DNA of 64,000 bases from a virus. This document shows positions 8,759 through 46,608 of this stretch, piece by piece. Each line of letters starts with the position of its first letter. Positions within the stretch are counted from its first letter, which is position 1. The stretch lies in IMG/VR virus record IMGVR_UViG_3300020420_000009, positions 1-64,000 of that record. One strand, written 5' to 3'. The notes beneath the pieces were generated by a model, which made no database searches, was not told the origin of the DNA, and saw only the letters and a program-made list of their open reading frames with translations. A program made the translations under genes and the position numbers.

Positions 8759-9297
8759 TCAACTTCTCCATAACCATATTTTGCATGTATAAAATCAACA
8801 CCAGCTCTCTTTGCACATTCGTAATCAGTCTGCATGTCTCCTATGTAAACTGTTTCACTTGGTTCTGTATTACAGAATGCCATAGTATATAGTAATTGGT
8901 CGGGAGCTGGTTTACCTCGTAGACCCATTGTGGGTGGACAAACAAAATCGAACTCAGGTAATTGTTCTAAAAGTAAATTAGTTCGTCTTTCACTCTTAGA
9001 AGTGCAAATTGCAGTCTTATAATTTTGTTTTAAGTCGGTAAGTGTATCAAATACACCGTCATATAGGTCTATCATATTTAGATTTTGTTCAGAAGTCTCT
9101 TCATAAGTCGTTTGGACATCTCTAGAGACACCTAATGCGTCCATTATTTGAACAAAAGGTTTTCCAATGTGTTTTTTATATGATTCAAAGGGTGTTTCTA
9201 TATTATGTGTGAGTCTAACTGCGTTCCAAGACAATTTCATGTTAGGTAATGAGTCAATAAGGACTCCGTCTAAATCAAATACTATTAATTTCTTCAC
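8707..9297 (-). CDS. HAD-superfamily phosphatase (phosphoglycolate-phosphatase-like)
   Basis: The 196-aa protein has HAD motif I DLDGVLIDS (8-16) with both catalytic Asp residues, motif II CTSKS, a GKPAPDQLL lysine motif and motif IV GDMQTDYECAKRAG. A helical cap lies between motifs I and II, as in Gph/PpaX-type enzymes; KDO-8-phosphate phosphatase (KdsC) lacks such a cap. It overlaps kdsB, so it may act on a sugar phosphate in the same pathway, but the substrate cannot be read from the sequence. Confidence 0.82.
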   Translation of the reverse strand: MKKLIVFDLDGVLIDSLPNMKLSWNAVRLTHNIETPFESYKKHIGKPFVQIMDALGVSRDVQTTYEETSEQNLNMIDLYDGVFDTLTDLKQNYKTAICTSKSERRTNLLLEQLPEFDFVCPPTMGLRGKPAPDQLLYTMAFCNTEPSETVYIGDMQTDYECAKRAGVDFIHAKYGYGEVECEVSLESITNLNLLLD

Positions 9298-31025: not shown

Positions 31026-32621
31026 ATGGCTGATGAAATATACATAAATCAAGGTTCCCAAGTTCAACAACCCTATCAGGGACAGATTGCCTATCAAGCA
31101 TTTGAAACAACTCAAAGAACTACACAACTTGGAGTAAACAGACAAGGACAACAACCTTTTCCTTTTATTGCTCAAAGTCCTTTTACATATAGAAACCCTG
31201 TTAATCAGCAACAACCTAATATTAGAGATGGACAGAACCCATTTACATATACAAGACAAGGTCAGTCACCGTTTACATACGACCACCAATCACCCTTTAC
31301 ATATAATAGTCAAAATGTTGCTAAGCAATCTTCGTATATTGCAAATGCACAACAACCATATCCGTATATTGCAAATGTTCAAGAACCTAATATCAGAAAT
31401 GCACAAACTACTATTCAAAATGTAAGTAAACAAAGTCCTTTTACATATGATTATCAATCGCCAGGCACTACACCTGTTCAAGGACAACAACCAGTAATTA
31501 GAGATAAACAAATAACTTACGGGAATAATGCAACAGGTCAAAGACCTCTTGCTCAAGGTGGGGTTCAAGCACCAAATAATATTCAAACACCATTTACATA
31601 TCAACATTTACAACCAAGAATGGGTGGATATCAAACTATACCTCAAGCATATCCAGGCCGATTCTATGATGATGATTCGCCAGGCTTTGCAACATATCAA
31701 TATCAGGTTCCAATTATTGCTCAGGCGAGACAACCAAGTCAATTCCAAGCAGCTAATGTGCAAACTCCAACTCCAGCAATTGCAAATTCACAGGCACCAT
31801 ATCCGTATATTGGTCAAGCACAACATTTAACATTTTATTTTAGTCCTAATACTGGTGAGGATTATCCATACAGAACACCAACACAAGCACAGGCTCAAGG
31901 AAGAACACCTTCTACATATCAAGTGCAGGCTAGAACACCGTCATTTACAACACAACAACCGTATCCTTACATACAATATTCTCAAGGCCCTACTACATAT
32001 GAACATAGGTCTCCGTTTACATATCAAACACCGACACAGGAACCTAATATTAGAGATGCAAGACAACCTGTAATATATCAACACCAACAACCAAGCACAT
32101 ATGATTATCAATCACCTAATACATATGCAAGACAAGGACAGACTCCTTTCACATATACTGCAAGACAACCTGTGATATATCAGAATGTTGGTGCAAGCGC
32201 ACAAGAACCAAACATTAGGTCAGGACAACAACCTTATCCATATATTGCACAGGGTAGACAACCATTTACATATAATTATAGGTCACCTTCAACATATCAG
32301 AGTCCTGTAAGTGGGCAACAACCAATTAATTCAACTGGTAGAAATCCATTTCCTTATATACACCAACAACCACAACCGTATATTTACAATTCACCATATA
32401 TTGCAAGACAACCATATACTACAACTAGAAATATAGGTGCTGTTGCAAAAGTTAAAGGTATATTTGTAAATAATCAAGGTGTAGTTGCAAAAGCACAAGA
32501 AGTATATGTGAATGCACCTCAAGGATTAGAAAAAGTTCACCAAGCAGTTCCAAATGCACAATTCTTAAAAGGAACAGAAGGTGACGGTGGACAAACACCA
32601 TATCAACCTGGCCCCGGCTAA
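31026..32621 (+). CDS. Tyr/Pro/Gln-rich octapeptide-repeat protein 1
   Basis: The 531-aa protein is built almost wholly of short units of about 8-10 residues with consensus [QR]-[SQNE]-P-[FYVS]-[TPI]-[YIR]: for example QSPFTYDHQ, AQQPYPYIAN, QEPNIRNA, ARQPVIYQ. Pro, Tyr, Gln, Asn and Arg dominate and hydrophobic residues are rare. Two related proteins are encoded downstream (38668 and 40073). The last 70 residues change to a more ordered segment (VKGIFVNNQGVVAKAQEVYVNAPQG), similar to the N-terminus of the second repeat protein. It may be an extended adhesive fibre or shaft. No known domain is recognised. Confidence 0.6.
   Translation: MADEIYINQGSQVQQPYQGQIAYQAFETTQRTTQLGVNRQGQQPFPFIAQSPFTYRNPVNQQQPNIRDGQNPFTYTRQGQSPFTYDHQSPFTYNSQNVAKQSSYIANAQQPYPYIANVQEPNIRNAQTTIQNVSKQSPFTYDYQSPGTTPVQGQQPVIRDKQITYGNNATGQRPLAQGGVQAPNNIQTPFTYQHLQPRMGGYQTIPQAYPGRFYDDDSPGFATYQYQVPIIAQARQPSQFQAANVQTPTPAIANSQAPYPYIGQAQHLTFYFSPNTGEDYPYRTPTQAQAQGRTPSTYQVQARTPSFTTQQPYPYIQYSQGPTTYEHRSPFTYQTPTQEPNIRDARQPVIYQHQQPSTYDYQSPNTYARQGQTPFTYTARQPVIYQNVGASAQEPNIRSGQQPYPYIAQGRQPFTYNYRSPSTYQSPVSGQQPINSTGRNPFPYIHQQPQPYIYNSPYIARQPYTTTRNIGAVAKVKGIFVNNQGVVAKAQEVYVNAPQGLEKVHQAVPNAQFLKGTEGDGGQTPYQPGPG
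31150..32430 (+). repeat. degenerate in-frame repeats of the 24-30 bp type
   Basis: Repeats encode SPFTY, EPNIR, PYPYIAN and similar octapeptides. The DNA copies share CCTTTTACATAT, CCTAATATTAGA and CCATATCCGTATATTGC blocks, so copy-number change by recombination is likely. The repeats are coding, so this is not a CRISPR array. Confidence 0.8.
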
Positions 32622-32628
32622 TAAAATA

Positions 32629-32636
32629 TATAAATA
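32629..32636 (+). promoter_or_regulatory. late promoter (TATAAATA), leaderless spacing
   Basis: A perfect TATAAATA ends 5 nt before the ATG at 32642 with no Shine-Dalgarno between (GTTTT), the same geometry as at gp25. Confidence 0.65.
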
Positions 32637-32641
32637 GTTTT

Positions 32642-32974
32642 ATGGCTATTATTGCAAACTTATTCATTGACCAAGGAACAGATTTTTCTATTACGGTAGA
32701 TGTGACTGATTCAGCGGGAACAGCATTAAATCTTACAGGATATTCTGCAGCTGCACAAATCAGAAAGACATATAGTTCTTCAACTGCCTCTGCAACATTC
32801 ACAACAAATATTGCAGCTGCAACTGGACAAGTGACTTTAAGTTTGACAGATACCGAAACTACTAATTTAGAAGCAGGTCGGTATGTATATGACCTAAATA
32901 TAAATAGTTCAGGTGGTCAAAAGACTAGAGTAGTCGAAGGACAAGCAACAGTGACCCCAGGCGTGACGAGGTAA
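32642..32974 (+). CDS. small beta-sandwich phage protein (110 aa), fibre-region
   Basis: The sequence IANLFIDQGTDFSITVDVTDSAGTALNLTGYSAAAQIRKTYSS resembles the common phage beta-sandwich with D.G..F...V....G...dLtgy.a.aqiR, as seen in baseplate/upper-protein and fibre-attachment domains. The C-terminal end (YVYDLNINSSGGQKTRVVEGQATVTPGVTR) completes it. It likely attaches to fibres or the capsid; the partner is unknown. Confidence 0.6.
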   Translation: MAIIANLFIDQGTDFSITVDVTDSAGTALNLTGYSAAAQIRKTYSSSTASATFTTNIAAATGQVTLSLTDTETTNLEAGRYVYDLNINSSGGQKTRVVEGQATVTPGVTR

Positions 32975-32976
32975 GT

Positions 32977-33189
32977 ATGGCAACAATTAAAGCAAGAGTA
33001 TTAAACAACAGTAATATCAGAGCAAAACAGGTCGCAATCGGTAATACCGATACGGTGAACTTATCAACAAAATCTATACAAGAACTTTCAGATGTCAATG
33101 CAACAGAGACAGATAAAGGAGTTCTTCAATATAACGCTTCTACAGATAAGTGGGAAACCACTAATGTTTTAGACGGCGGAACATTCTAA
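32977..33189 (+). CDS. small protein ending in DGGTF (70 aa)
   Basis: Contains IQELSDVNATETDKGVLQYNASTDKWE, a fragment typical of phage fibre shafts (LSDV..T...G.VL.YN..T.KWE), and ends LDGGTF. It follows the 110-aa gene after 2 bases. The same C-terminal GG[TS]F end occurs in the 478-aa and 86-aa proteins nearby. It is probably a small fibre accessory. Confidence 0.55.
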   Translation: MATIKARVLNNSNIRAKQVAIGNTDTVNLSTKSIQELSDVNATETDKGVLQYNASTDKWETTNVLDGGTF

Positions 33190-33192
33190 AAG

Positions 33193-33200
33193 TATAAATA
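33193..33200 (+). promoter_or_regulatory. late promoter (TATAAATA) for the 478-aa fibre
   Basis: A perfect TATAAATA just after the previous stop. The start site would be about 33206, giving a leader of about 130 nt with three hairpins. Confidence 0.65.
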
Positions 33201-33214
33201 CTTATACAATCAAG

Positions 33215-33302
33215 GTGTCATTCAGTGAGACACGACCCTCATAGTGAGAGGATTGGTATATTATAATCTTTCTCGAATAGTGCAGAGAAAAATTTGCAAA
33301 TT
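33215..33302 (+). ncRNA. leader with three tandem hairpins carrying AGTG loops
   Basis: Hairpin 1: GTGTC (33215-33219) with GACAC (33229-33233). Hairpin 2: CCTC (33237-33240) with GAGG (33248-33251). Hairpin 3: TTTCTC (33269-33274) with GAGAAA (33285-33290). All three loops include AGTG. A perfect palindrome AAATTTGCAAATTT follows, up to 33302, and a Shine-Dalgarno (CAGGAG) then precedes the ATG at 33338. Confidence 0.45.
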
Positions 33303-33337
33303 TTTAATATAAACAACTATTTTTTCAGGAGAAAAAA

Positions 33338-34774
33338 ATGGCAACAGTAATTCAGATTAAACGAAGCACAGGAGTGTCCGCCCCCGCAGTCTCAGACTTG
33401 TCGGAAGGCGAATTAGCTTATGTGCAAGATAGGTCTAATTCGGGTGCTGGAGCAAAACTTTACATAGAATCCGTAGATTCTGATAATTCAACTCCATTGA
33501 TTCATGCAATCGGTGGTAAATACTTTACTGATATTTTATCAGGTTCAACTGCAACACCAGCCAACTTTAAAGTTGGTAATAGTGCAACGCAGGGAGCTGA
33601 GATTCAGTTATTAGAAGATTCAGATAACGGTTCACATTATGTTGCATTGAAAGCACCTAACAGTGTGGCTGGAAATGTGACATTAACCTTGCCGGGCGCA
33701 GACGGTTCTAATGGACAAGTTTTGGGAACAGACGGAAGTGGAACCCTATCATTTATTTCGACAACCTCGACTCTTGCTGGTGCGTCAGACACAGATATAT
33801 CCTCACCTAGTGGTGGACATATCCTAGTCTACGATGGAAGTAATTCCTTCGACAATGTCGCAGTATCAGGAGACGCAACAATTGCATCTAACGGTGCATT
33901 AACAATAGCAAACACTGCTGTGGAAACAGCAATGATTGCAAATGACGCAGTCACACTAGACAAGATTGCAGATGCAGTTATCATTACAGAAGGAGAAGGT
34001 ATTTCTTCTAATGATGTGGACACAGGATTCCCAACAGCAGCTGCAGTTAAAGATTATGTTGATTCACAGGACACTGCTCAAGACTTGGATTTCCAAGCTG
34101 ATTCAGGTGGTGCCTTATCAATTGATTTAGACAGTGAAACCATGGTATTTGCTGGAACAGCAAATGAGATTACAACAACTGCATCAGGTAATACCGTCAC
34201 AATCGGTATGCCAGATAATGTCACTATCGCAGGAAACCTAACAGTAAGTGGAACAACTACTACAGTTAACTCTACAACAGTTAGTATTGCTGACCCAGTT
34301 TTTGAAATTGGTGACGATAGTTCAGACGACAACCTAGACAGAGGTATTAAATTCAAATACAACAGTTCAGGTGCAAAAGTTGGTTTCTTCGGTTTCGATG
34401 ATTCAACAGGTAAGTTCATAGCATTAGGAGCTGCAACAGACTCTTCTTCAACATTCTCAGGAACAGCATTAGGTGCAGTTTTTGGTGGATTAGAAGCTTC
34501 AGGTCTTGCTCTTTCAGGTTCTATTACTTCTATTGACGGGTCTGCTCCAACAGCAGGTCAGTTGTTAATTGGTCACGGTTCAAACGGTGACTTTGCAGCT
34601 GGAACCCTAACAGCAGGAGAAGGTATAGATGTGACTAATGCAGACGGTAGTATCACAATCGCAGGTGAAGATGCATCAACCTCTAATAAAGGTATAGCAA
34701 GTTTTGCAAGTGCAAACTTTACAGTGAGTAGTGGTGCAGTATCAATAACTGCTATTGACGGCGGAACATTTTAA
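33338..34774 (+). CDS. modular tail fibre protein (478 aa)
   Basis: The N-terminus ([28 protein letters not shown]) is the fibre-tip or fibre-base domain found in many marine phages, including a KRS..P....L.EGELAYN pattern. The C-terminal part carries [31 protein letters not shown], a module shared with the 742-aa fibre (LTVSGTTSTVSSTNTTISDALIELGNG). It ends AIDGGTF. It has a strong Shine-Dalgarno (CAGGAG) and its own late promoter and structured leader. Confidence 0.7.
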
Positions 34775-34800
34775 TTAACCGTTTATAGGAGGAAAACGAT

Positions 34801-35628
34801 ATGGCAACTCAGATACAGTTTAAGCGTTCATCAACTCAGAATGAAGTGCCCGCAACAAGTGATTTAGCACTTGGTGAAGTGGCAATCAATACCTATCATG
34901 GTAGAATGTATACAGAGAAAAATGATGGAAGTGCAGCTATAGTTCAGATTGGGTCTAACCCAACTTCACTAACTGTTAATGATGCATATTCTTTTCCAAC
35001 CGCTGACGGTTCTAGTGGTCAAGTCTTAAAAACTGACGGTTCAGGAACATTAAGTTTCGGAGCTGCAAGTAGTGGAGCTGGTATATCTATTTTTAAATAT
35101 ACTATATCTTCAAACACTACTTCGATAACTGGTAATGACGATGACGGAAACTCTCTATCCTACACAGTAGGTTCAGAGCAAGTTTACCTCAACGGTGTTA
35201 AACTGGTTGACGCAGGAACAGACTATACTGCCACAAATACATCAACCGTCACTTTGGCACAGAATGCTATAAGTGGAGATGTAGTAGAAGTTGTATCCGT
35301 GACTGCAACTGATTTAGTTCAAGGGAACTATACAGAAAGTTCATTCTCGGCAACAACTGCAAACCAAGTATTATCAGCAAACGCGGTTGCCAATAAGGCA
35401 ATCAAGTATGTGATAGTCGCAACACATGCTTCTGCAGGCACACATGCTTGTGAAGTGTTAATAGTAAACAATGGAAGTAATTCATATTTCGTTCAATACG
35501 GTGATGTGATTTCAAGTTCCAGTTTGTTTTCACTGAGTTCAGATATTAATTCAGGAAACATGAGATTACTCATTACTCCAGTTAATACAAATACTACAGT
35601 GGATACATTCCAAATCAGACTTACATAG
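34801..35628 (+). CDS. modular tail fibre protein (275 aa)
   Basis: Begins IQFKRSSTQNEVPATSDLALGEVAINTYHGRMYTEKNDG, the same KRS/LGE.AINT.. motif set (MtdN-like) of phage fibre proteins. A SYTVGSEQVYLNGVKLVDAGTDYT segment is a receptor-like beta module found also in gp7 and the 420-aa fibre. The C-terminal 95 residues (KYVIVATHASAGTHACEVLIVNNG..YVQYGDV..) are related to the whole 136-aa protein next to it. Shine-Dalgarno: AGGAGG. Confidence 0.65.
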   Translation: MATQIQFKRSSTQNEVPATSDLALGEVAINTYHGRMYTEKNDGSAAIVQIGSNPTSLTVNDAYSFPTADGSSGQVLKTDGSGTLSFGAASSGAGISIFKYTISSNTTSITGNDDDGNSLSYTVGSEQVYLNGVKLVDAGTDYTATNTSTVTLAQNAISGDVVEVVSVTATDLVQGNYTESSFSATTANQVLSANAVANKAIKYVIVATHASAGTHACEVLIVNNGSNSYFVQYGDVISSSSLFSLSSDINSGNMRLLITPVNTNTTVDTFQIRLT

Positions 35629-35638
35629 GGGGATATAA

Positions 35639-36049
35639 ATGGCAATAACTAAAGCTTTTAAACTTGCAGAACTTATCCGACATATAGAGTATGATTCTAC
35701 AGACGATGTAATTAAAACGAGTAAACCAACTCAAGATAAAAATACAAAGAAAGGAAGTGATACTAAAACTTCTACTTCTCAATTTAGTCTTGATACATTT
35801 GCTCATGCAACCTACAGGGCTGCAAGATACATAGTTGCAATGTCAGAAGGAACTAATTTCCATTCTACTGAAATCATGTTGATTCATGACGGAACAACAG
35901 TGACAATCACACAGTATGGTATACTCAAGGATACTACACTTGCCACATTTGATGCAGACATTAATGGCTCAAATGTTAGACTATTATGCACTCCTGCTTC
36001 TACAAACTCGACAGTAATCAAGTTTGACAGAACAGTAGTGGACGCATAA
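35639..36049 (+). CDS. short fibre-tip-type protein (136 aa)
   Basis: The C-terminal 90 residues (YRAARYIVAMSEGTNFHSTEIMLIHDGTTVTITQYGILKD...ADINGSNVRLLCTPASTNSTV) are homologous to the C-terminus of the preceding 275-aa fibre (YVIVATHA..THACEVLIVNNG..YGDV..SSDINSGNMRLLITPVNTNTTV). It therefore looks like a free-standing receptor-type domain. The N-terminal 45 residues are Lys/Thr-rich. A terminator follows its stop. Confidence 0.55.
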   Translation: MAITKAFKLAELIRHIEYDSTDDVIKTSKPTQDKNTKKGSDTKTSTSQFSLDTFAHATYRAARYIVAMSEGTNFHSTEIMLIHDGTTVTITQYGILKDTTLATFDADINGSNVRLLCTPASTNSTVIKFDRTVVDA

Positions 36050-36055
36050 GTTCTT

Positions 36056-36083
36056 AAGGGGGTCAATCGACCCCCTTTTTTTC
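36056..36083 (+). terminator. rho-independent terminator
   Basis: AAGGGGGTC (36056-36064) pairs with GACCCCCTT (36069-36077) with a 4-nt loop, and a T tract follows. It ends the unit that includes the 275-aa and 136-aa fibre genes. Confidence 0.92.
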
Positions 36084-36114
36084 ATATTTCTTTTTTCTTT
36101 AGACACCCCAATCT

Positions 36115-36122
36115 CATAAATA
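36115..36122 (+). promoter_or_regulatory. late promoter (CATAAATA)
   Basis: CATAAATA 30 nt before the ATG at 36153, right after the terminator; restarts late transcription. A weak Shine-Dalgarno (TTGAGGA) is present. Confidence 0.55.
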
Positions 36123-36152
36123 ATCAAGTAAAACTTAAATTGAGGACACTAA

Positions 36153-36413
36153 ATGGCAACTACAAATACTTTTGTTATTGAATACGGGATAAGTGTCGGG
36201 TCAACAGAGGTTATCAATAGCTCAGGTAAATTACAAGCGAGTGCAATCAGCACTCTAGATACGGATAATCTTTCAGAGGGTTCGACAAATCAATATTTCA
36301 CGAATGCAAGAGCAAGAGGAGCAATCTCACTTGCAAGTGGAGAAACTAATTTATCATATAATTCTTCAAATGGAGAATTGAGTTTGCCAACAGTTAATGG
36401 AGGCTCGTTCTAA
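36153..36413 (+). CDS. small fibre-type protein ending in NGGSF (86 aa)
   Basis: The N-terminal IEYGISVGSTEVINSSGKLQASA is similar to the start of the next protein (IKNGLSVGDTEVLDSSGDLTAAA), so the two share a domain. A NLSEGSTNQYFTNARARGAISL segment is the fibre-shaft motif repeated in the 420- and 742-aa proteins. It ends TVNGGSF, and its stop overlaps the next ATG (TAATG). Confidence 0.6.
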   Translation: MATTNTFVIEYGISVGSTEVINSSGKLQASAISTLDTDNLSEGSTNQYFTNARARGAISLASGETNLSYNSSNGELSLPTVNGGSF

Positions 36414-38641
36414 TGGCAGATGTAAACTTTAAAATTAAAAATGGTCTATCCGTAGGGGATACCGAGGTATTAGACAGCTCAGGTGATTTAACTGCAGCTG
36501 CATTCGGAACTGCAGCCCTAGAAAAAATAGATGACCAAGTAAACTCTTTACTAACAGCAGGTTCAGGAATATCATTATCATATGATGATTCAGCAGGAAC
36601 ATTAACAGTCACGAGAGACGCAGAGACAGGAGACATTGAAGGAGTCACTGCTGGAGACGGACTTTCAGGTGGTGGAACAAGTGGAACAGTATCACTTGCA
36701 TTAGACCTAAACGAATTAACAGCTGCAACAGTAGATGTATCTGCCGATAGTATACCATTCATAGATGGCACTGCAACAAGAAAAGAAAGTATTTCAGATT
36801 TAGTATCAGGAATGGCTGGAACAAATTTAACTGCAAGTTCAGGAACATTAGGAATTGCAGATTCAGTTATTAGAGGAAAGATTAGTGCAAGTGGAGATTT
36901 ATCATATAACTCTTCAACTGGTGTAATATCATTTACAAATGACGCTGGTGACATAGAAAGTGTTGTTGCTGGTTCAGGTTTAACAGGCGGTGGCACATCA
37001 GGAGATGTCACACTAAATGTTATAGGTGGTGACGGTATTACTGCAAATGCAAACGATATTGCATTATCTTCATCAGTTGCAGGCGACAATCTTTCATATA
37101 GTTCAGGTGTCCTAGCAGTAGAACAAAATTTAACAAATTCTTCTGCACCATATTATCATAGGTCAATAGTCACCGTATCAAGTGGTAAATTCTTATTTGA
37201 CGGTCAATCGTCCTCACAAGCTTTAAGACTAACACCAAATGTAGTCTATAGATTTGACCAATCAGATAGTTCAAACGGTTCACACCCATTAAGATTCTCT
37301 GAATCAGCAGACGGTTCAGAAATGACAGACGGTTATTTAATCTATAACAAAGTTGGAACTCCAGGCTCTAGTGGTTCATATACAGAAGTTGCATTCGACC
37401 AAGAATCAAACAATCCTATGTATTTCTACTGTTCAAATCACAGTGGAATGGGTAATACAGTTATACTTGGTGGTGCAGAGAATACAGATTCATTAGACGA
37501 AGGTTCGAGTAATCTTTATCATACCACTGCAAGAGCAAGAGCAGCTATAAGTGCTGGTGGTGACTTATCATACAACAGCACAACTGGTGTAATGAGTTTC
37601 ACAAACGATGCTGGAGACATATCATCAGTCGTTGCTGGAGACGGTTTAACAGGTGGTGGAACAACAGGAGATGTCACACTTGCAGTTCAAGTAGATGATA
37701 GTTCTATAGAAACAGATTCAGATACATTAAGAGTAAAAGCAAGTGGTATAACAAATGCCATGTTAGCAGGTTCGATTGCAAATGATAAACTTGCTGGTTC
37801 GATTGCAAACGCAAAACTTGCAAATAGTTCTATAACTCTAAACTCTAATACAGTTGCATTAGGTAATTCACTTACATTAGATACAGACGATATCGGTGAG
37901 GGTTCAAGTGCCCAATATCATACAACAGAAAGAGTTCAAGATGTAGTTGGAGCTCAGATTGCAACTAATGGTTCACATACAAATATTACTGCAAGTTATG
38001 ACGACGCTGGAGACGGTGCAGTCGACTTATCAATCACAGATGCAGTAATCAGAGGTAAAATATCTGTCACAGATTCAGGTGGAGACGGTTCACTTGCATA
38101 TAATAACTCTACTGGTGTAATAACATATACTGGCCCAAGTGCTTCAGAAGTAAGAGCTCACATAAGTGCTGGAACTGGTGTAGGATTCTCAGGTGGTGCA
38201 GTTAGTATTGGACAGGCAGTTGGAACAAGTGATAATGTGACCTTTAACAATTTGGTTGTAGGTGGAAACCTAACAGTCAGTGGAACTACTTCAACAGTTA
38301 GTTCTACAAATACAACAATTTCAGATGCACTTATAGAATTAGGAAATGGAACATCAGGTTCTCCTTCAAATGACGCAGGTTTGGTTATTGAAAGAGGAAG
38401 TTCAGATAATGTGTTTATAGGTTGGGACGAAAGTGCAGACGCAATCACATTCGGAACAGGTTCATTTACTGGTGCTTCAACAGGTAATTTAACAATTACC
38501 CCAAGTGCAGTTAACACTGGTGCAGTCACAATTACAAATGCAACAAATAATGGTGGAACTGCAAGAAACATATATCAGTCAACCTCTGCACCTAGTGGTT
38601 CAGACGGAGCAGTTGGTGATTTATGGATTCTATACTCCTAA
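36413..38641 (+). CDS. long modular tail fibre with a cupredoxin-like domain (742 aa)
   Basis: N-terminal NGLSVGDTEVLDSSG, then several shaft repeats (GSGISLSYDDSAGTLTV, GDGLSGGGTSGTVSLAL, LDEGSSNLYHTTARARAAI). Near the middle is a cupredoxin-type motif: H291, C340, H343, M346 (FYCSNHSGMGN), like the one in gp7. The distal part has LTVSGTTSTVSSTNTTISDALIELGNG. It ends SGSDGAVGDLWILYS. This is the largest fibre in the window and a likely receptor-binding protein; the host receptor is unknown. Confidence 0.7.
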   Translation: MADVNFKIKNGLSVGDTEVLDSSGDLTAAAFGTAALEKIDDQVNSLLTAGSGISLSYDDSAGTLTVTRDAETGDIEGVTAGDGLSGGGTSGTVSLALDLNELTAATVDVSADSIPFIDGTATRKESISDLVSGMAGTNLTASSGTLGIADSVIRGKISASGDLSYNSSTGVISFTNDAGDIESVVAGSGLTGGGTSGDVTLNVIGGDGITANANDIALSSSVAGDNLSYSSGVLAVEQNLTNSSAPYYHRSIVTVSSGKFLFDGQSSSQALRLTPNVVYRFDQSDSSNGSHPLRFSESADGSEMTDGYLIYNKVGTPGSSGSYTEVAFDQESNNPMYFYCSNHSGMGNTVILGGAENTDSLDEGSSNLYHTTARARAAISAGGDLSYNSTTGVMSFTNDAGDISSVVAGDGLTGGGTTGDVTLAVQVDDSSIETDSDTLRVKASGITNAMLAGSIANDKLAGSIANAKLANSSITLNSNTVALGNSLTLDTDDIGEGSSAQYHTTERVQDVVGAQIATNGSHTNITASYDDAGDGAVDLSITDAVIRGKISVTDSGGDGSLAYNNSTGVITYTGPSASEVRAHISAGTGVGFSGGAVSIGQAVGTSDNVTFNNLVVGGNLTVSGTTSTVSSTNTTISDALIELGNGTSGSPSNDAGLVIERGSSDNVFIGWDESADAITFGTGSFTGASTGNLTITPSAVNTGAVTITNATNNGGTARNIYQSTSAPSGSDGAVGDLWILYS

Positions 38642-38647
38642 TAAATA
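38640..38647 (+). promoter_or_regulatory. weak late promoter-like box (AATAAATA)
   Basis: AATAAATA overlapping the previous stop, 20 nt before the ATG at 38668; ACAGGA serves as Shine-Dalgarno. A variant box with low certainty. Confidence 0.3.
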
Positions 38648-38667
38648 GGAGACATACAGGATAATTT

Positions 38668-40071
38668 ATGGCGTCAGGTTCACAGAAAGTTAAAACCCCA
38701 TCAGGTTGGAATGCAACTCAAGGTGCATGGGTCAAGACAGGCCCGTCTACTTGGAAAGCAGTTGACCAAATTTATATTAAAGCTCCAGGCGGGTGGAATA
38801 ATGCTTCAGGTCAAGAGGCAGTGCAACAACCTTATCCATATATTGCACAGGGTGGTTCTCCATATATTGCAAATGCACAGAACCCATATCCCTATATTGC
38901 AAATGCACAGGAACCAAACATTAGGTCAGCACAACAACCTTATCCTTACATTGCAGACGGTGGGTCACCTTATATTGCAAATGGACAGGAACCTAATATT
39001 AGAAACCAACAGGAACCAAATATTCGTTCTGCACAGCAACCGTATCCATATATTGCAAATGCACAGGAACCTAATATAAGAAACAGACAAAATCCGTTTA
39101 CATACGACCATAGGTCACCTTTTACATATAATCACAGAAGTCCTTTTACATATGACCATAGGTCACCTTTTACATATCGTAATCCGTTTACTTACAATCA
39201 TAGGTCACCATTTACATATAACTATAGGTCACCGTTTACATACAGAAGTCCTGTGAGTGCTCAGGAACCTAATATTAGGAATGGACAGAACCCATTTACA
39301 TATCCAGCAAATATTCAACAACCGAATATTCGTTCTGCACAACAACCGTTTACATATCCAGCAAATATTCAACAACCAAATATTAGGAGTGCTCAACAAC
39401 CGTTCACATATCCTGCGAATATTCAGCAACCTAATATAAGAGACGCTAGGACACCGTTTACCTATCATGCAAGACAGCCGGGCAGTGCAAGACAACCAGT
39501 TCCTTTCTCATATCAAAGTCCATATATCGGAACTGCAAGACAACCAGTTTACTACCCAGGCGGTGGTTCACCAGGCTTCGGTGGTGGTTGTTTCGCAATG
39601 GGAACTATGATATGGATGAGCGACAATACATACAGACCAATCGAAACTATAGAAATTGGAATGTCAGTAATGACATTCGGAGAATCAATAGAGGTTGGAG
39701 TGGTCGAAGAACTTATGCAGCCTAGAGTGTGTGGGTTATACGATATAGAAGTCAACGGTAAAATTACTGGTGTGACTGGAGGACACCCATTCTTAGTTCA
39801 AGATAAAGGGTGGTGTGTTATAAACATGGAAGACTGGGAGCAAGAAGTTGCTGACGGTGTTGCTTGGGGTGGAGAAGTCTCAGGTGTAATTGAAGAGGGT
39901 GATATCCTTGTAGATTCATTATCATTGATTTTAAATAATCAATCGAATGCAAAGGTATCTAATATTAACAAATTGGAAGGAGAACATGAGGTCTATCACT
40001 TGGCTCGTGTAAGTGATAATGCGAACTTCTTTGCAAATGACTTTGTAGTCCATAACTTACAGAAGAGATAA
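38668..40071 (+). CDS. Tyr/Pro/Gln-rich repeat protein 2 with a C-terminal Hint (intein-like) domain
   Basis: The N-terminal 50 residues (GWNATQGAWVKTGPSTWKAVDQIYIKAPGGW) have a fibre-tip style. Residues about 55-295 are repeats such as AQQPYPYIAN, QEPNIRN and RSPFTYNH. After a Gly-rich linker, residue C308 starts a Hint domain: CFAMGTMIWMSDNTYRPIE, the block-B type TGGH (T370, H373), and a C-terminal VVHN (H462, N463) followed only by LQKR. These are the catalytic positions of inteins and hedgehog-type self-cleaving domains. The likely reaction is self-cleavage at C308 or ligation to a nucleophile; it does not interrupt a host protein, so it is not a classical intein. Confidence 0.75.
   Translation: MASGSQKVKTPSGWNATQGAWVKTGPSTWKAVDQIYIKAPGGWNNASGQEAVQQPYPYIAQGGSPYIANAQNPYPYIANAQEPNIRSAQQPYPYIADGGSPYIANGQEPNIRNQQEPNIRSAQQPYPYIANAQEPNIRNRQNPFTYDHRSPFTYNHRSPFTYDHRSPFTYRNPFTYNHRSPFTYNYRSPFTYRSPVSAQEPNIRNGQNPFTYPANIQQPNIRSAQQPFTYPANIQQPNIRSAQQPFTYPANIQQPNIRDARTPFTYHARQPGSARQPVPFSYQSPYIGTARQPVYYPGGGSPGFGGGCFAMGTMIWMSDNTYRPIETIEIGMSVMTFGESIEVGVVEELMQPRVCGLYDIEVNGKITGVTGGHPFLVQDKGWCVINMEDWEQEVADGVAWGGEVSGVIEEGDILVDSLSLILNNQSNAKVSNINKLEGEHEVYHLARVSDNANFFANDFVVHNLQKR
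38830..39550 (+). repeat. in-frame DNA repeats of the octapeptide protein 2
   Basis: Tandem units of about 24-30 bp. The unit AGGTCACC(T/G)TTTACATA recurs many times between 39110 and 39250, and CAACAACCG followed by TTTACATATCC or similar recurs up to 39410. The repeats are coding. Confidence 0.8.
39589..40071 (+). other. Hint domain (self-processing) of repeat protein 2
   Basis: Codons for residues 308-467. The catalytic positions Cys (first residue), TxxH and a terminal His-Asn are all present. The residue after Asn is Leu, not Cys, Ser or Thr, so splicing to a C-terminal extein is not expected; N-terminal cleavage or trans-ligation, as proposed for A-type bacterial intein-like domains, is more likely. 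Confidence 0.7.
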
Positions 40072-40072
40072 T

Positions 40073-40867
40073 ATGCCATTTTATCAAAGTGTATATGCAA
40101 CTCAAGCAAGACAACCAGTTCCTGCGAGTTATCAGAGCCCATACGGAACTCAGAATCCTTACATTGCAAATGCAAGACAACCGTTTACCTATAATTATAG
40201 GTCACCGTTTACATATCAAGCACCTGCTAGAAACCCTTTCACTTATCATTATAGGTCACCCTTTACATATCAAGCACCCGCTAGAAACCCTTTCACCTAT
40301 AATTACAGGTCACCATTCACCTATCAGGCACCTGCGAGACAGCCTTTTACTTATCACTATAGGTCACCGTTCACTTATAGAAATCCAGTATCAGCACAAG
40401 AACCAAATATCAGGTCAGCACAACAACCGAATATTAGAGATGCACAATCACCAAGTAATGCACAACAACCTACTATTAAGTCAGCACAAGAACCAAACAT
40501 TAGGTCAGCACAGGAACCTAATATTAGGGACGCAAGACAACCTTCTACATATGATTATCGTTCACCTTCAACATACGAAAGACAGGGTCAAACACCTTTC
40601 ACATATGACCATAGGTCACCTTTAACATATTCACATAGAAGTCCGTTTACATATAGTAATCAGAACCCTACAACTTATGCAAGACAGGGTCAGACACCAT
40701 TTACTTACAACTATAGAAGTCCTTCGACATATGCAAGACAAGGTCAGACACCTACTACATACAGTAATCAAAACCCGACTACTTATGCAAGACAAGGTAG
40801 AACACCAGTTATTAGGTGGGACGGAGTCTTACAACAACAATGGCCTGGAACACCGATATCTAGTTAA
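40073..40867 (+). CDS. Tyr/Pro/Gln-rich repeat protein 3 (264 aa)
   Basis: Almost entirely repeats: NYRSPFTYQAPARNPFTYHY, QEPNIRSA, RQGQTPFTYNY and similar. It starts 2 bases after the stop of protein 2 and shares its consensus. The very short N-terminus and the terminal RTPVIRWDGVLQQQWPGTPISS are non-repetitive. No Hint or other domain is present. It may be a partner subunit of protein 2. Confidence 0.55.
   Translation: MPFYQSVYATQARQPVPASYQSPYGTQNPYIANARQPFTYNYRSPFTYQAPARNPFTYHYRSPFTYQAPARNPFTYNYRSPFTYQAPARQPFTYHYRSPFTYRNPVSAQEPNIRSAQQPNIRDAQSPSNAQQPTIKSAQEPNIRSAQEPNIRDARQPSTYDYRSPSTYERQGQTPFTYDHRSPLTYSHRSPFTYSNQNPTTYARQGQTPFTYNYRSPSTYARQGQTPTTYSNQNPTTYARQGRTPVIRWDGVLQQQWPGTPISS
40165..40800 (+). 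repeat. in-frame DNA repeats of octapeptide protein 3
   Basis: A 48-bp-type unit (TATAGGTCACC(G/C)TTTACATATCAAGCACC..) repeats at about 40195, 40250 and 40305, followed by single octapeptide repeats. Arg is coded AGG before Ser TCA here, which avoids GATC. Confidence 0.8.
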
Positions 40868-40876
40868 TTTTAGTCA

Positions 40877-40884
40877 ACTAAATA
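40877..40884 (+). promoter_or_regulatory. weak late promoter-like box (ACTAAATA)
   Basis: ACTAAATA 10 nt before the ATG of the glycosyltransferase gene; variant box, no Shine-Dalgarno in between. Confidence 0.3.
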
Positions 40885-40894
40885 CATTTATATT

Positions 40895-42556
40895 ATGGAT
40901 ACTTTTGAATATATACAAACCCTAGACCGAGCAAAAGAGTTATTCAAACCCTATACTTCTTATGAGGATATGCCTACAAAGCAAGTTCAATTAGGTCAAC
41001 TCCCTGTTCCAAAACATAGAAAAGATACAGACGAAACAGAAGAAGTGTGGAGATACATTATAGATGAATGTATGCCTCCAATTAGATTAGTCACTTGGAA
41101 AGATATAAAACCTTTAATGGATAGTAAAGAGATTATGTCATGGGGTGGATTAGACCACAACGCATATCAATACTTAAATTATCTACATAAAGGTTGGACA
41201 GAAGAAAATAGACCCGACCACCCTCTCAAAGGTGGTTCTATGGATTATATGAATGCAGACGGTGAATACGAATGTCTTACTCAACCTACAATAAAAACAG
41301 CTTATGATAGGATAAAGTTTGCAGACAAATATGGATATGTAGAAGGAACTCAAGAATATGAAGACTTAATGAATGGAGTTATAGATATAACTCTTGATTC
41401 TGAAAAAGAAAATACAATATGTTCTATTTACTATCACGCTGCAAAAGCTCATTGGTTAATAAATGATATACAAAAGAATGGTCTCTGGCAACCTATTCAA
41501 GGTCTTACACACTACACAGGAAATCCAGGCGGTAAACATTCTTTATCTATACACCCTGGCTCAATGAGAAGTAGGTCTTTTCAATCAATGGATTATCCCG
41601 ATAATACTTGTCTTGTCACTGATTATAGTAATTGTTTTCCTAATCACCCTCGTTTAAGTATGGAAAATATAAGAGATTATTGGTTCTCTCTAATACCTAA
41701 AGAGGGTAGAAATGTAAATGCAATTTATACAGACCAAAGAAAAATAGAGTTTAGTCCCTCTTTAGTTCAAGGTGGTGGAACTGATTTTAGAAAATATGTT
41801 TATGCATATAATAAGAAAGTGACAAAGTTATGTAAAAAGAAACCTTTAAACATATACATTGGTTATGATTCTTCTCACGATAATATTATACATGAAGTTT
41901 GTGAAAAGTCAATACATGATAGCATAGAAAGGTCAAAAAGTAAAGGCGCAGGAGCGGATTACTTTAACGATTTTGAAATAGAAACTAAATTACTTGACAT
42001 AAGCAAAATAAAAGATTATAATAGAGACTATGCAAATCAATCTACTGAATTTACATATAGTAGATTTTTAATTCCATATCTAGAAAACTATGAGGGGTTT
42101 AGTATCTTTATAGATAATGATTACATATGGAAGAGAACTCCTTTACCATTTTTCTATTTTCTTGACCCCGACCATGCTGTTGCTTGTGTGCAATATGATT
42201 TTGAACACCATGACAGTGTAAAAATGGGTGGAGAAGTAAATATATCATATCCTAAAAAACTATGGTCTAGTATGATGATATTTAATAATGGACACGAAGA
42301 TTGTAAAAAGTTAACACCCGAAGTTGTTAATAATCAGTCAGGTAAATATTTACATCAGTTTGAATGGACAGATAAAATTAGTAAAATACCTCATGGAAAA
42401 ATTGCAACAGAAGGATTTGAAACAGAATGTCTTGATTCACACCATGCAGTCCATTATACAAGGGGTGGGCCATGGATAAAAGGCATGGATTGTTCAAACA
42501 TAAATATGTTAGAACAATTTTATAAAGTGAAAAGCACCTTGCCAACAAACAAATAA
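40895..42556 (+). CDS. bifunctional-looking protein: ParB-fold-like domain plus GT8-like glycosyltransferase
   Basis: The N-terminal half holds a domain (about 180-262) with HWLINDIQKNGLWQP, SIHPGSMRSRS and HPRLSMENIRDYW, which matches the 273-aa protein at 7209 (WLVHNIKTQGLY, AHPGQFRVHA, FPKLSFEDWW). The C-terminal half (about 317-550) looks like a GT-A glycosyltransferase: IYIGYDSSHDN at the start of the Rossmann-like fold, FTYSRFLIPYLENYEGFSIFIDND with a DxD-like DND at 407-409, and HAVHYTRGGPW near the end. Its placement between repeat proteins and hydroxylase genes suggests that it modifies a virion protein. The sugar and acceptor are unknown. Confidence 0.65.
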   Translation: MDTFEYIQTLDRAKELFKPYTSYEDMPTKQVQLGQLPVPKHRKDTDETEEVWRYIIDECMPPIRLVTWKDIKPLMDSKEIMSWGGLDHNAYQYLNYLHKGWTEENRPDHPLKGGSMDYMNADGEYECLTQPTIKTAYDRIKFADKYGYVEGTQEYEDLMNGVIDITLDSEKENTICSIYYHAAKAHWLINDIQKNGLWQPIQGLTHYTGNPGGKHSLSIHPGSMRSRSFQSMDYPDNTCLVTDYSNCFPNHPRLSMENIRDYWFSLIPKEGRNVNAIYTDQRKIEFSPSLVQGGGTDFRKYVYAYNKKVTKLCKKKPLNIYIGYDSSHDNIIHEVCEKSIHDSIERSKSKGAGADYFNDFEIETKLLDISKIKDYNRDYANQSTEFTYSRFLIPYLENYEGFSIFIDNDYIWKRTPLPFFYFLDPDHAVACVQYDFEHHDSVKMGGEVNISYPKKLWSSMMIFNNGHEDCKKLTPEVVNNQSGKYLHQFEWTDKISKIPHGKIATEGFETECLDSHHAVHYTRGGPWIKGMDCSNINMLEQFYKVKSTLPTNK

Positions 42557-42577: not shown

Positions 42578-43153
42578 ATGAATGCATTAACTTATTGTGA
42601 GTTTGGAAATCTACAAATTAGAAAACCAAACGGATTAGAATATCGATTTGAAAATGTCGATAAGCCTGAATTAGGTTTTGATTATGAGGTTTTAATATAC
42701 GACCAAATAGAAGTCAAAGTATTAAAATGGGAAGAAGGAAAACCTTTAGAAGAACAGGAAACATTACCTTTATCTGAGACAGATAGAGATAGTATTGAAA
42801 AATATATTTCAAATTCAGAACCACCTATGGGTGTAAATTTGAATAATCAATTTATCGGTGAAATTAATAGAGCTGCACGAGAGAATATACAATTACAATC
42901 ACAGAAACATGGTTTTGATGATTTCTTTGAATGTATATATGCTGGAAGAGAAGGTTCTGCTCACCCTTATAGGTCAGACGCAAGACGAGTATTAGAATAT
43001 GCAGATGCAACTAATAATGTTCTTGACGGTCTTTTCAGAGAAATATCTGTCACTAGAGAAGATACTTTAAAACCTATAGAAGAATATCTTTTGGCTTTAC
43101 CTACTCCCTCAAATTTGAAGGACGGAGGATTTAATGCCGAACATAAACTTTGA
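42578..43153 (+). CDS. uncharacterised protein, possible tail-fibre assembly factor (191 aa)
   Basis: The N-terminal half (LTYCEFGNLQIRKPNGLEYRFENVDK...VLKWEEGKPL) is beta-rich. The C-terminal half (FDDFFECIYAGREGSAHPYRSDARRVLEYADATNNVLDGLFREI) is helical and resembles the last part of small phage tail-fibre assembly proteins, but the match is not strong. A Shine-Dalgarno (CTGGAG) precedes the ATG. It overlaps the next gene by 20 bases. Confidence 0.55.
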   Translation: MNALTYCEFGNLQIRKPNGLEYRFENVDKPELGFDYEVLIYDQIEVKVLKWEEGKPLEEQETLPLSETDRDSIEKYISNSEPPMGVNLNNQFIGEINRAARENIQLQSQKHGFDDFFECIYAGREGSAHPYRSDARRVLEYADATNNVLDGLFREISVTREDTLKPIEEYLLALPTPSNLKDGGFNAEHKL

Positions 43154-43871
43154 TTCAATCGAACAGGTTGATTTAGACTCACCTTTTTATATTACCGAGG
43201 CACCTCTTGGTAATAAAATATATGTAATAGACAATTATCTTGATTCGTCTCTACACCATGCAATAGACCAATACCTAAATCACTCTACCTCATGGTTAAA
43301 AGGTAATGAGGTTAGTGGTGGAAAGGGAAGAGGTGGATTACCTAATCACCAACTATGGGGAGCTTCATATTTTAGAGGAAGAGATATTGGTGACGGCAGA
43401 AAAGAAAAAGTTATATGTGAATCTCATAGACATGGTATCCCTCATTTAATGAATTGGTTTGATAGAAAGATTAGAACAGATTTTGGTTTTGAATGGGTTA
43501 GGTTTCAGTATATGGGAACTAATTCACAAACACATGGTTTAGACGGAAGTAGTCATTCAGATTGTAGTCCTCATGATAATTATAATCTCTCTTTTTTATA
43601 TTACACTAATACCTTTTGGAATGATAATTGGGGTGGTGATTTGAGATTTTACGATAGACATGTTCCTACAGGTGCAAGAGAATTAATGAACAAATATGAA
43701 ATAGGAAGAGTTGCATTCAAACCAAATAGGTTATTAATGTTTGACGGAAGAATAGAACATGGTGCAGAATCCCCTTCTAAAGAAGCAAGATATATAGATA
43801 GGAAGTCTATCGTTTTGAGAGGAGACGAGATTAGACTATTAGACGAGAAACAAAGATATGCCAACTGTTGA
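43134..43871 (+). CDS. 2-oxoglutarate/Fe(II)-dependent oxygenase (P4H-like)
   Basis: The 245-aa protein has the double-stranded beta-helix iron site: HSD (H141, D143), a distal H209 in EHGAE, and R223 in YIDRKSIVL as the 2-oxoglutarate anchor. A WGGDLRFYD segment and FKPNRLLMFDGR further match prolyl-4-hydroxylase-type enzymes, which hydroxylate peptide residues (commonly Pro). It lies in an overlapping cassette with the neighbouring genes and follows three Pro-rich repeat proteins, so those repeats are attractive substrates (inference). Confidence 0.8.
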   Translation: MPNINFDSIEQVDLDSPFYITEAPLGNKIYVIDNYLDSSLHHAIDQYLNHSTSWLKGNEVSGGKGRGGLPNHQLWGASYFRGRDIGDGRKEKVICESHRHGIPHLMNWFDRKIRTDFGFEWVRFQYMGTNSQTHGLDGSSHSDCSPHDNYNLSFLYYTNTFWNDNWGGDLRFYDRHVPTGARELMNKYEIGRVAFKPNRLLMFDGRIEHGAESPSKEARYIDRKSIVLRGDEIRLLDEKQRYANC

Positions 43872-44802
43872 ATTTAGAACATATAATCCCGAAGCTTTTC
43901 AAAGATTTAAACCAGTCGTTGCAAAAAGTTATATGCCAGAATGGTGGAAGACTGCAAAGATTAAAATAGACCATAGAGGTTTAGCTGCTCAAACTATAAG
44001 GTCTTGTCCAGCAATGGACGATTATTTAAAAACTGGTTGGTATATTATTACTGCATGTGACATTCCTGTTATGAATGGTGAAACTTGGGATTGGCCAGAC
44101 GGTGGAGAAAGTTTTACAACAAGAGTAGAAAACTTAGACGGAACTGATAATTTACAATATTCTCCAACTCACCCAGCTGCACAGTTTCAAGATTCATTTG
44201 AATATATGGGTGACGAAGGGCCTGTAAAAGATGCATTCAAAATGGGAAATTTTTGGAACATAACTACACCTCCAGGCTATTCAGTTTTTTTCATAGACCC
44301 ATTCTTATTTCAAAATAAATTTTTTGCAGTATGGCAAGGTATAATTGATACAGATACTTTTAACTTAGGTATGGATAACGCACAAATTATTTTTTATCCA
44401 AAGGTAAATCATTCTTTTGTGATACCAAAAGGAACTCCTATATTACAAATAGTTCCTTTTAAAAGAGACGAGTGGAAGTCAACATTTATATACGGTAAAT
44501 CTAAAGATTGGTATAACACACATGGTGTAGTAGAAGAGTCAATGCAAAAATGGCAAAAGGATTTTGGTTTACAAGACCCTTATACAGGACAAACTGTGCC
44601 AGTCGAAGATAGATTAAATATCGGTGGATATAGAAAGGCTGGGTTTAAAAGTAATAAAGCTACTTTATATAATGAAGGTGACAATCCACCACCTGAATGT
44701 CCTATGCATAGAAAAGAAGAGGTTCAGTTGGAAATGGATTTTAAAGAAAAACAAAGAAGTATGACAGACTTAAATTGGGACGGACATGAAGAAAGGGATT
44801 AG
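43858..44802 (+). CDS. uncharacterised DUF6065-like protein
   Basis: The 314-aa protein contains MPEWWKTAK, CPAMDDYLKTGWYI, NFWNITTPPGYSVFFIDPF, GIIDTDTFN and VIPKGTPILQIVPFKRDEW. This run of TPPGYS, GI.DTD and I..GTPI.Q..PF.R is shared by a family of marine phage and bacterial proteins (DUF6065, from memory). It may be a jelly-roll/cupin-like fold. It overlaps both oxygenase genes, so it likely works in the same modification process. Confidence 0.6.
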   Translation: MPTVEFRTYNPEAFQRFKPVVAKSYMPEWWKTAKIKIDHRGLAAQTIRSCPAMDDYLKTGWYIITACDIPVMNGETWDWPDGGESFTTRVENLDGTDNLQYSPTHPAAQFQDSFEYMGDEGPVKDAFKMGNFWNITTPPGYSVFFIDPFLFQNKFFAVWQGIIDTDTFNLGMDNAQIIFYPKVNHSFVIPKGTPILQIVPFKRDEWKSTFIYGKSKDWYNTHGVVEESMQKWQKDFGLQDPYTGQTVPVEDRLNIGGYRKAGFKSNKATLYNEGDNPPPECPMHRKEEVQLEMDFKEKQRSMTDLNWDGHEERD

Positions 44803-45475
44803 ATTATTATTTCCAACCATTGTATACGAGGAGAACCTTGTAGAAAGTGGAAGGATTACAGCAGAACATTGTGGTATTTTAAAAGATGCAATAGACGGAA
44901 TGAGAAAGAATGACCCAGTAGGTCGACAAATATCAAATGCATATACAGGTTGGCAATCTAATGACGGTTGTGAATCCAACCCAGCTTTTAGTAAGTTAAT
45001 GAGAATATTGAGAGATATTTTTAATAATGAAATAGGTGGGTTCCATGGTATTGATAGAGGAAGAGTTCAGATATCTGTAGGTAATTGTTGGGCAAATGTA
45101 AATGACCACCTTGCATGGAATAGACCTCATTTACATAATGGTTGTTGGTATAGTGGTGCTTTTTATGTGCATTCAGAAGGAGACGAAGGTTCATTTATTG
45201 CAGTTAATACAGACCCCAAAGTTGTAGCTGATTATCCCCCTAACGCAAGGTCAATAGAGAGTTGGGAAGTAAAACCAGTGACAGGTAGTTTAATTTTGTT
45301 TCCGAGTGCTATGATGCATATGGTTGAACCTAATAGAACACATAAAGATAGATACTCTATTTCATTTAATGTGAATACAGATAGGATAGGACACCAAAGA
45401 GAACACCAAGTTAAAAGAATAGATGAAGATTGGAACTTATTTAATTTAGACGAAGATTTTGAATTGACTAAGTAA
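44786..45475 (+). CDS. 2OG-Fe(II) oxygenase-like protein (TIGR02466 type)
   Basis: The 229-aa protein has RPHLHNGCWYSGAFYVHSEGDEGSFI, SWEVKPVTGSLILFPSAMMHMVEPN and KDRYSISFN, the pattern of the TIGR02466 putative 2OG-Fe(II) oxygenases. The usual HxD is HLH here (H115, H117), with H178 as distal ligand and R189 as a likely 2OG anchor, so the metal site departs from the textbook HxD. It overlaps the preceding gene by 17 bases. The substrate is unknown. Confidence 0.72.
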   Translation: MKKGIRLLFPTIVYEENLVESGRITAEHCGILKDAIDGMRKNDPVGRQISNAYTGWQSNDGCESNPAFSKLMRILRDIFNNEIGGFHGIDRGRVQISVGNCWANVNDHLAWNRPHLHNGCWYSGAFYVHSEGDEGSFIAVNTDPKVVADYPPNARSIESWEVKPVTGSLILFPSAMMHMVEPNRTHKDRYSISFNVNTDRIGHQREHQVKRIDEDWNLFNLDEDFELTK

Positions 45476-45792: not shown

Positions 45793-46608
45793 ATGGCAAT
45801 ACCAAACTCTAAAACTACACTTAAAGAATACATAAAGAGAAAACTGGGAGCTCCAGTTTTAGAAATTAATGTAGACGATGACCAGTTTGACGATAGGTTA
45901 GACGAAGCAATTCAATACTTCCAAGAGTATCATTATGACGGTTCTATGCGTGTTTATCTGAAACACAAACTAACTTCAGCAAATTTAGCAACTATGAAGA
46001 CAAACGAAACCTTCATAGAAAGTTCAGCTGGAACACATGATTACAATAATCAAGAAGTTCAACAACAAAAAAATTACATAGTATTACCTGAGTTTGTATT
46101 AGCAGTAAATAGAATCTTTCCGTTCAATGATAAAAGTAATCTTAATATGTTTGACCTTAGATATCAATTAAGGTTAAACGATTTATATGACCTAACCTCA
46201 ACAAACATATTACATTATGAAATGGTTCAACAACATATTTCTATGATGGATATGATATTGACAGGTCAAACTCCTATCAGATATAAACAAAATATGAATA
46301 GATTATATCTAGATGCAGATATCGAATCATTCTCAGCAGACGAATACATAATCATAGAGTGTCATAGAAAAATAGACCCAACAGATTTTACAGATATATT
46401 TAACGATATGTGGTTAAAAAGATATGCAACTGCATTAGTTAAGTATCAATGGTCAGAGAATTTATCTAAATTTGACGGTATTGCATTGCCAGGCGGAGTG
46501 ACATTGAGTGCAGCTGAAATGAAATCTCAAGCACAAGAGGAAATAACAAAATTAGAAGAAGAATCTAGACTGAATTATGAACTTCCAGTTATGGATTTAA
46601 TGGGATAA
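45793..46608 (+). CDS. 13: gp13-like neck protein
   Basis: The 271-aa protein starts KTTLKEYIKRKLGAPVLEINVDDDQFDDRLDEAIQYFQEYHYDG-like sequence and has QNMNRLYLD, characteristic of T4 gp13 homologues (T4: 309 aa). gp13 forms the first ring under the portal and joins gp14 to complete the head. The gene order 13-14-15-16-17 matches T4 apart from an inserted methyltransferase. Confidence 0.85.
   Translation: MAIPNSKTTLKEYIKRKLGAPVLEINVDDDQFDDRLDEAIQYFQEYHYDGSMRVYLKHKLTSANLATMKTNETFIESSAGTHDYNNQEVQQQKNYIVLPEFVLAVNRIFPFNDKSNLNMFDLRYQLRLNDLYDLTSTNILHYEMVQQHISMMDMILTGQTPIRYKQNMNRLYLDADIESFSADEYIIIECHRKIDPTDFTDIFNDMWLKRYATALVKYQWSENLSKFDGIALPGGVTLSAAEMKSQAQEEITKLEEESRLNYELPVMDLMG

Follow-up and report, generated by a model that had tools for sequence, protein, structure and literature searches.

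Plant extensins and mussel foot protein 1 are built from short Pro/Tyr-rich repeats that are hydroxylated, and in the extensins also glycosylated. Among the unexplained genes of marine phages, those encoding 2-oxoglutarate (2OG)-Fe(II) oxygenases are some of the commonest; we know of no established substrates for their products. Phage structures match the prolyl hydroxylase EGLN3 more often than any other human protein (PMC12774648). One turn of the beta-helix takes 8 residues in T4 gp5 and about 6 in T4 gp12 (PMC3004832), and the mimivirus proteins L230 and R699 are lysyl hydroxylase/glycosyltransferases (PMC9546862). The locus described here lies in positions 1 to 64,000 of the 129,718-base virus record IMGVR_UViG_3300020420_000009 (IMG/VR; this stretch is called the window), which belongs to a clade of uncultured marine T4-like viruses. 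It encodes three Pro/Gln/Tyr-rich repeat proteins (R1, R2 and R3), a Hint domain, a putative glycosyltransferase (GT), two 2OG-Fe(II) oxygenases (OXa and OXb) and two further conserved proteins (D191 and M). The combined explanation preferred here, with a probability of about 0.5, is that R1 to R3 would be virion fibres modified by the virus's own hydroxylase and glycosyltransferase, and that some of them would be trimmed by the Hint domain.

The three open reading frames (ORFs) that a first-pass annotation of the same DNA had taken for repeat proteins are real, lie on the plus strand and are strongly periodic. The repeat unit is [QR]-x-P followed mainly by FTY, NIR, YPYIA, STY or YIANA, with a length of 8 residues and variants of 6 and 10; 8 and 6 are the commonest spacings. 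Identity autocorrelation peaked at lag 8 and at combinations with 10 (lags 8, 18 and 26), reaching 0.32 at lag 8 and 0.34 at lag 18 in R3 (0.09 expected) and 0.22 in R2 (0.06 expected), with a weaker periodicity in R1 (0.16 against 0.09 expected). Identical 8-residue units show, on average, 2.5 differences in 24 bases in R3 and 3.5 in R2, and since equal peptide units thus carry different codons the repeats are not just a recent DNA tandem array. The repeats are rich in Q, Y, R, N and P and almost without Lys (0.4%), Leu and Cys (0.0%), with Gly at 2.8%. No support was found for the adhesive role that had been suggested, or for cross-linking, and lysine cross-linking was rejected in view of the Lys content. 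A collagen-like repeat was also rejected, there being no Gly-X-Y and the spacings (8/6/10) not being multiples of three.

The strongest regularity of the repeats is a two-residue register. All fetched relatives were thinned to 137 proteins sharing fewer than half of their 5-mers, and in their repeat regions the distance from one Pro to the next was even in 5103 of 5213 cases (98%). The register is not an effect of copying, because even lengths also prevailed among distinct inter-Pro segments (1926/2025, 95%; a shuffled control gave 2692 even against 3095 odd) and among those seen only once (1372/1465). Other residues keep to one side of it: Tyr (99%), Phe (97%), His (96%), Val (89%) and Ala (88%) stand at odd offsets from the preceding proline, and Ile (90%), Asp (78%), Gln (71%) and Arg (70%) at even offsets. 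In R3, the 33 prolines of residues 15-245 form one even-spaced run. The parity z-score was 27 for R2 and 22 for R3, compared with 4.9 for the positive control T4 gp5C, a known triple-stranded beta-helix in which 12/12 Val spacings are even; a T4 gp12 stretch with inexact boundaries gave -0.1. Among proteins of the same loci used as controls, 26% to 57% of the spacings were even, and z was -0.3 for GT and 2.5 for fib742, the large fibre-type protein encoded upstream of R2.

The repeats therefore display the two-residue in/out alternation with short even-length strands that characterises gp5C and gp12. A two-residue register that holds across more than 200 residues is what extended beta strands would give, one face bearing Pro, Gln, Arg and Thr and the other aromatic residues and Ala. 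We infer from these sequences that the repeats adopt this form; proline could be the kink between strands. The register does not fit a disordered brush, nor does it fit a polyproline-II or a collagen helix, both of which would favour threes. The earlier view of an extensin-like chain without hydrophobic cores is made doubtful by the strict alternation of faces, and the even-spacing rule points instead to a two-faced, beta-stranded shaft.

No Pfam or PHROG family matched the repeat regions. A tblastn search of R2, and of its N-terminal region with the first units, gave no match in 50,697 phage records, where the BLAST low-complexity filter may mask repeats. A pattern scan of 84,980 bacterial and archaeal genomes gave five matches, four without repeat genes and one a phage contig. 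The same cassette stands on this 121-kb contig, which was binned into a Sphingobacteriales metagenome-assembled genome, a weak hint of the host. A cyanophage with photosystem genes was considered as the source of the window and rejected, PF00124 being absent from the record.

The association of repeats with enzymes, which the first-pass annotation had named in advance as a test of its proposal, was followed in relatives, where it held. The window's head-tail adaptor gp13 reaches about 51% identity at best with cultured phages, among which Kyanoviridae (Melnitz, HTVC008M, Mosig and P-RSM6) come closest. Three sets of distinct loci were compared, after a thinning that counts distinct proteins and not independent origins: 22 loci anchored on gp13, a choice independent of the repeats, with at least 7 kb upstream; 35 loci found by the repeat DNA pattern, with at least 6 kb downstream; and 18 sister-clade loci found with the Melnitz gp13, eight of which extend at least 7 kb upstream, the rest at least 4 kb. 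Repeats together with GT, D191, OXa, M and OXb were present in 22/22 gp13-anchored loci, in one of which the repeats (45 units in frame) were recognised on choosing another ORF, and all five downstream genes were present in 35/35 repeat-anchored loci. Neither repeats nor any of the five genes occurred in the 18 sister-clade loci. Cassette order and content are fixed across the 22 + 35 loci at about 40-60% protein identity. An apparent loss of R3 in two loci (L199 and L202) was dismissed as an ORF-calling artefact, another frame holding 42-45 units.

The gene order is fib742-R2-R3-GT-D191-OXa-M-OXb-TM86-gp13 (Table 1). From R2 to OXb the genes overlap or lie 1-27 bases apart, and from R2 through gp13 all gaps are 1-39 bases or overlaps. 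The T4-late-promoter-like octamer TATAAATA occurs 16 times where 6.3 would be expected, and none lies between 33200 and 45760, so R2, R3 and the enzymes probably share one late transcript. In T4, gp12 (short fibre) and wac (whisker) are encoded immediately upstream of gp13, and the repeat locus occupies a fibre block between baseplate genes and gp13; this position argues for R1 to R3 being virion fibre proteins.

Table 1. Features of the repeat-protein locus, in window coordinates.
Feature	Coordinates	Strand	Remarks
R1 repeat protein, 531 aa	31026..32621	+	Conserved N-terminus (M-A/S-D/E-EIY) and C-terminus; same place in relatives
s110, small protein	32642..32974	+	Like phrog_3304 (L-shaped tail fiber protein assembly); present in sister clade too
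T4-late-promoter-like octamer	33193..33200	+	Last before R2; next on strand at 45760
fib742, large fibre-type structural protein	36413..38641	+	Immediately upstream of R2 in relatives
R2, whole ORF, 467 aa	38668-40071	+	
R2 N-terminal domain, about 52 aa	38668..38823	+	VKTPxGW...QIYIKTPxGW; conserved in 80 distinct R2 proteins
R2 repeat shaft, aa 55-297	38830..39558	+	39 prolines in a single unbroken even-spaced run
R2 C-terminal Hint domain	39586..40068	+	Cys near start, TGGH block B, HN at end, +1 = Leu
R3 repeat protein, 264 aa	40073..40867	+	C-terminus RWDGxLxQQWPxTPI conserved
GT, 553 aa	40895..42556	+	Predicted C-terminal GT-A fold (about aa 318-545); N-terminal half without known relative
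D191, conserved 191-aa protein	42578..43153	+	Function not assigned; 0 matches in 50,697 phage records
OXa, 2OG-Fe(II) oxygenase	43134..43871	+	PF13640, 6e-8
M, 314 aa	43858..44802	+	phrog_7084
OXb, 2OG-Fe(II) oxygenase	44786..45475	+	PF13759, 2.5e-17
TM86, 86 aa	45493..45753	+	One probable membrane segment; always between OXb and gp13
gp13 head-tail adaptor	45793..46608	+	phrog_211; comparison anchor

Both oxygenase genes that had been placed directly downstream of the repeats are real, but D191 and M intervene within the same operon. In OXa, the residues H141, D143, H209 and R223 are invariant among 31 sequences, giving the HxD...H...R motif, with a putative 2OG-binding Arg 14 residues past the distal His. 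The motif is shared with prolyl 4-hydroxylases (PF13640), and the best PDB match of the OXa profile was the prolyl 4-hydroxylase 6t8m (6.5e-5), a similarity too low for substrate assignment; HIF prolyl hydroxylase, the ribosomal-protein prolyl hydroxylase TPA1 and EGLN1 followed with marginal E-values. OXa is thus classed as a prolyl-4-hydroxylase-like 2OG oxygenase and is a candidate for peptidyl-proline hydroxylation. A PHROG label of 'DNA endonuclease V' was dropped, as the Pfam and PDB profiles are those of 2OG oxygenases. In OXb, H115, H117, H178 and R189 are invariant, and its nearest solved relatives are uncharacterised.

The gene annotated earlier as GT8-like is real and its product has a predicted GT-A fold, but only the C-terminal 230 or so of its 553 residues make up the glycosyltransferase. 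The AlphaFold2 model (pLDDT 86) had as foldseek neighbours WbbM, the PBCV-1 capsid glycosyltransferase, XXYLT1, LgtC, LARGE1 and LH3, and the modelled GT-A fold carries an invariant DxD (D407 and D409). As to GT8 itself, the window GT had no Pfam match at E<=1, and the fold neighbours span several glycosyltransferase families. The N-terminal 310 or so residues (40895-41840) have a confidently predicted fold and are conserved, with Y180, H181, H186, W187 and H220-P-G-S-x-R225 invariant; searches with this part gave no convincing match, and by eye it perhaps holds a ParB/sulfiredoxin-like motif. Profiles of GT, M and D191 matched nothing convincing among PDB sequences, and family searches with D191 gave scattered weak matches only. 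One member of the M family weakly resembles DUF6065, and M has homologs with 23-28% identity in halophilic archaeal tailed viruses of the HF1/HF2 type. Adjoining the baseplate genes on the minus strand are a CMP-sugar cytidylyltransferase (8030-8758; PF02348, 3e-43) and a HAD phosphatase (8707-9240), a pair that could supply an activated sugar.

The Hint domain noted at the locus was confirmed and lies inside R2, at residues 307-467 (PF14890, E=2.9e-6, under the curated cut-off). It is optional: the 80 distinct R2 proteins comprise 20 with a Hint domain, 7 fused to R3, and 53 with other or cut ends, a few of them cut by contig ends; in some without Hint a Gly-rich tail or another cap closes the protein. 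Since most relatives lack it, the domain is not essential to the fibre. Full-length Hint domains carry HN in 26/27 cases, TxxH in 26/27 and the start Cys in 23/27 under a strict pattern, while position +1 holds F, G, M, R, Y, I or K; none of 26 full-length cases has Cys, Ser or Thr there. The start Cys, the block B T..H, the C-terminal HN and the non-nucleophilic +1 are those of bacterial intein-like (BIL) Hint domains, although the sequence match to the BIL structure 2lwy was marginal (E 0.063) and the R2 domain, unlike its BIL counterparts, forms the end of a fibre-type protein. Cleavage is the main activity of such domains (PMC7664689), and trimming of the R2 C-terminus is therefore the likely event; the R2 Hint is predicted to cleave and not to splice. 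An ordinary intein was rejected for want of a splice acceptor. In several loci (L069, L150 and others) R2 ends neither in Hint nor in the usual short tail, and such an R2 can be followed, as in L182, L150, L219 and L251, by a small ORF of 85-100 aa, perhaps encoding a dedicated chaperone for a swappable tip.

In the proposed mechanism, R1, R2 and R3 would be fibre proteins made late, along with the downstream enzymes. Their 6-, 8- and 10-residue units would be short beta strands of an extended, probably trimeric shaft, with Pro, Gln/Arg and Thr/Ile on one face, Tyr/Phe/Ala/His on the other and a proline at each corner or kink. OXa would hydroxylate the prolines of the exposed face, and OXb, GT, D191 and M would finish or assemble the shaft, GT adding a sugar to hydroxyproline, Ser or Thr. 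In about one quarter of the genomes the Hint domain at the R2 C-terminus would cleave itself off after folding. The earlier idea of a modified-fibre locus keeps its outline, with a prolyl-4-hydroxylase-like OXa, a GT of predicted GT-A fold and a tail-fibre block upstream of gp13, and the earlier interpretation as a whole is partly supported.

Several observations weigh against this mechanism. Clade-wide as it is, the strong association of repeats and enzymes amounts to a single evolutionary contrast, and the resemblance of OXa to prolyl hydroxylases is weak in absolute terms. Further 2OG-Fe(II) oxygenases lie away from the repeats in the same phage (61499-62176 in the window; about 71748-72047 and 125004-125243 in the record). 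The repeat-less relatives HTVC008M and Mosig hold several 2OG oxygenases, not OXa orthologs, at the same place, together with ferrochelatase and haem oxygenase. Because of that one contrast and those other oxygenases, the main rival, less likely than the proposed mechanism, is that the repeats are fibres and the enzymes unrelated cargo, the gp10-gp13 gap being a cargo hot spot of Kyanoviridae and the targets being host surface glycans, DNA or metabolites. Proposed roles for the several 2OG oxygenases that cyanophages often bear are DNA repair or 2OG metabolism (PMC3037559). Yet the cargo of the relatives varies, whereas order and content are constant here; OXa, like D191, had no tblastn match in the 50,697 phage records; and no late-promoter octamer separates repeats from enzymes.

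The structure of the shaft has its own difficulties. R1 has shorter parity runs than R2 and R3, with 12 of 62 spacings breaking the rule, and AlphaFold2 gave a single R3 chain (29 sequences) a pLDDT of 40 with no secondary structure, which is weak evidence where the protein is an obligate oligomer. That model, and a composition so rich in Q, Y, R, N and P, would suit intrinsically disordered, sticky Arg/Tyr low-complexity brushes (hydrogel or FUS-like 'stickers'), but these need no register, and the even spacing of distinct and total inter-Pro segments makes them improbable. Most improbable is a covalently closed or anchored fibre, in which Hint would go beyond cleaving and ligate R2 to R3 or another amine. 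It would account for R2-Hint standing immediately before R3 and for the R2-R3 fusions of other genomes; against it, the 53 other R2 proteins lack both Hint and fusion, no Cys, Ser or Thr stands at +1, and R3 has its own start codon.

If the proposed mechanism is correct, this would be, to our knowledge, the first phage fibre that is proline-hydroxylated by phage enzymes. No report of hydroxyproline in phage tails was found in the literature searched, subscription papers being outside its scope, nor was a fibre finished by the virus's own sugar transferase and hydroxylase found reported for a bacterial virus. OXa has an obvious candidate substrate alongside it in every genome examined, proline being the invariant residue of the unit, and the parity rule yields a directly testable fibre architecture from sequence alone.

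Among known systems, the nearest precedent for the parity is the T4 gp5 beta-helix, a tail component that has octapeptide repeats and two-residue alternation in common with R1 to R3 and, taken together with gp12, also 8- and 6-residue units (PMC3004832). The gp5C consensus is VxGxxxxx (Val/Gly), whereas here it is [QR]xP(F/Y/N)(T/I)(Y/R/A), proline replacing glycine at the repeated position; neither the VxGxxxxx consensus nor homology to gp5C was found in the repeats. We know of no modifying enzymes for gp5C. Phage collagen-like tail fibres also have simple tandem repeats, in their case Gly-X-Y triplets, and the available part of that account describes no hydroxylase or glycosyltransferase with them (PMC3368898). 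Mimivirus collagens with L230 and R699 likewise combine a virus-encoded repeat fibre, a 2OG hydroxylase and a glycosyltransferase (PMC9546862). Their Gly-X-Y collagen is modified at lysine; here the period is 2/8, Lys and Gly are scarce, the enzyme is prolyl-hydroxylase-like, the genes are separate and the virus is bacterial. Extensins and mussel foot protein 1 are Lys-rich and eukaryotic, their likeness to R1-R3 is one of composition only, and we know of no even-spacing rule in them. Tentatively, then, a bacterial virus may have beta-stranded fibres of a new proline-cornered 6/8/10 repeat, hydroxylated and glycosylated by its own enzymes, as a prokaryotic, beta-structured counterpart of collagen and extensin maturation.

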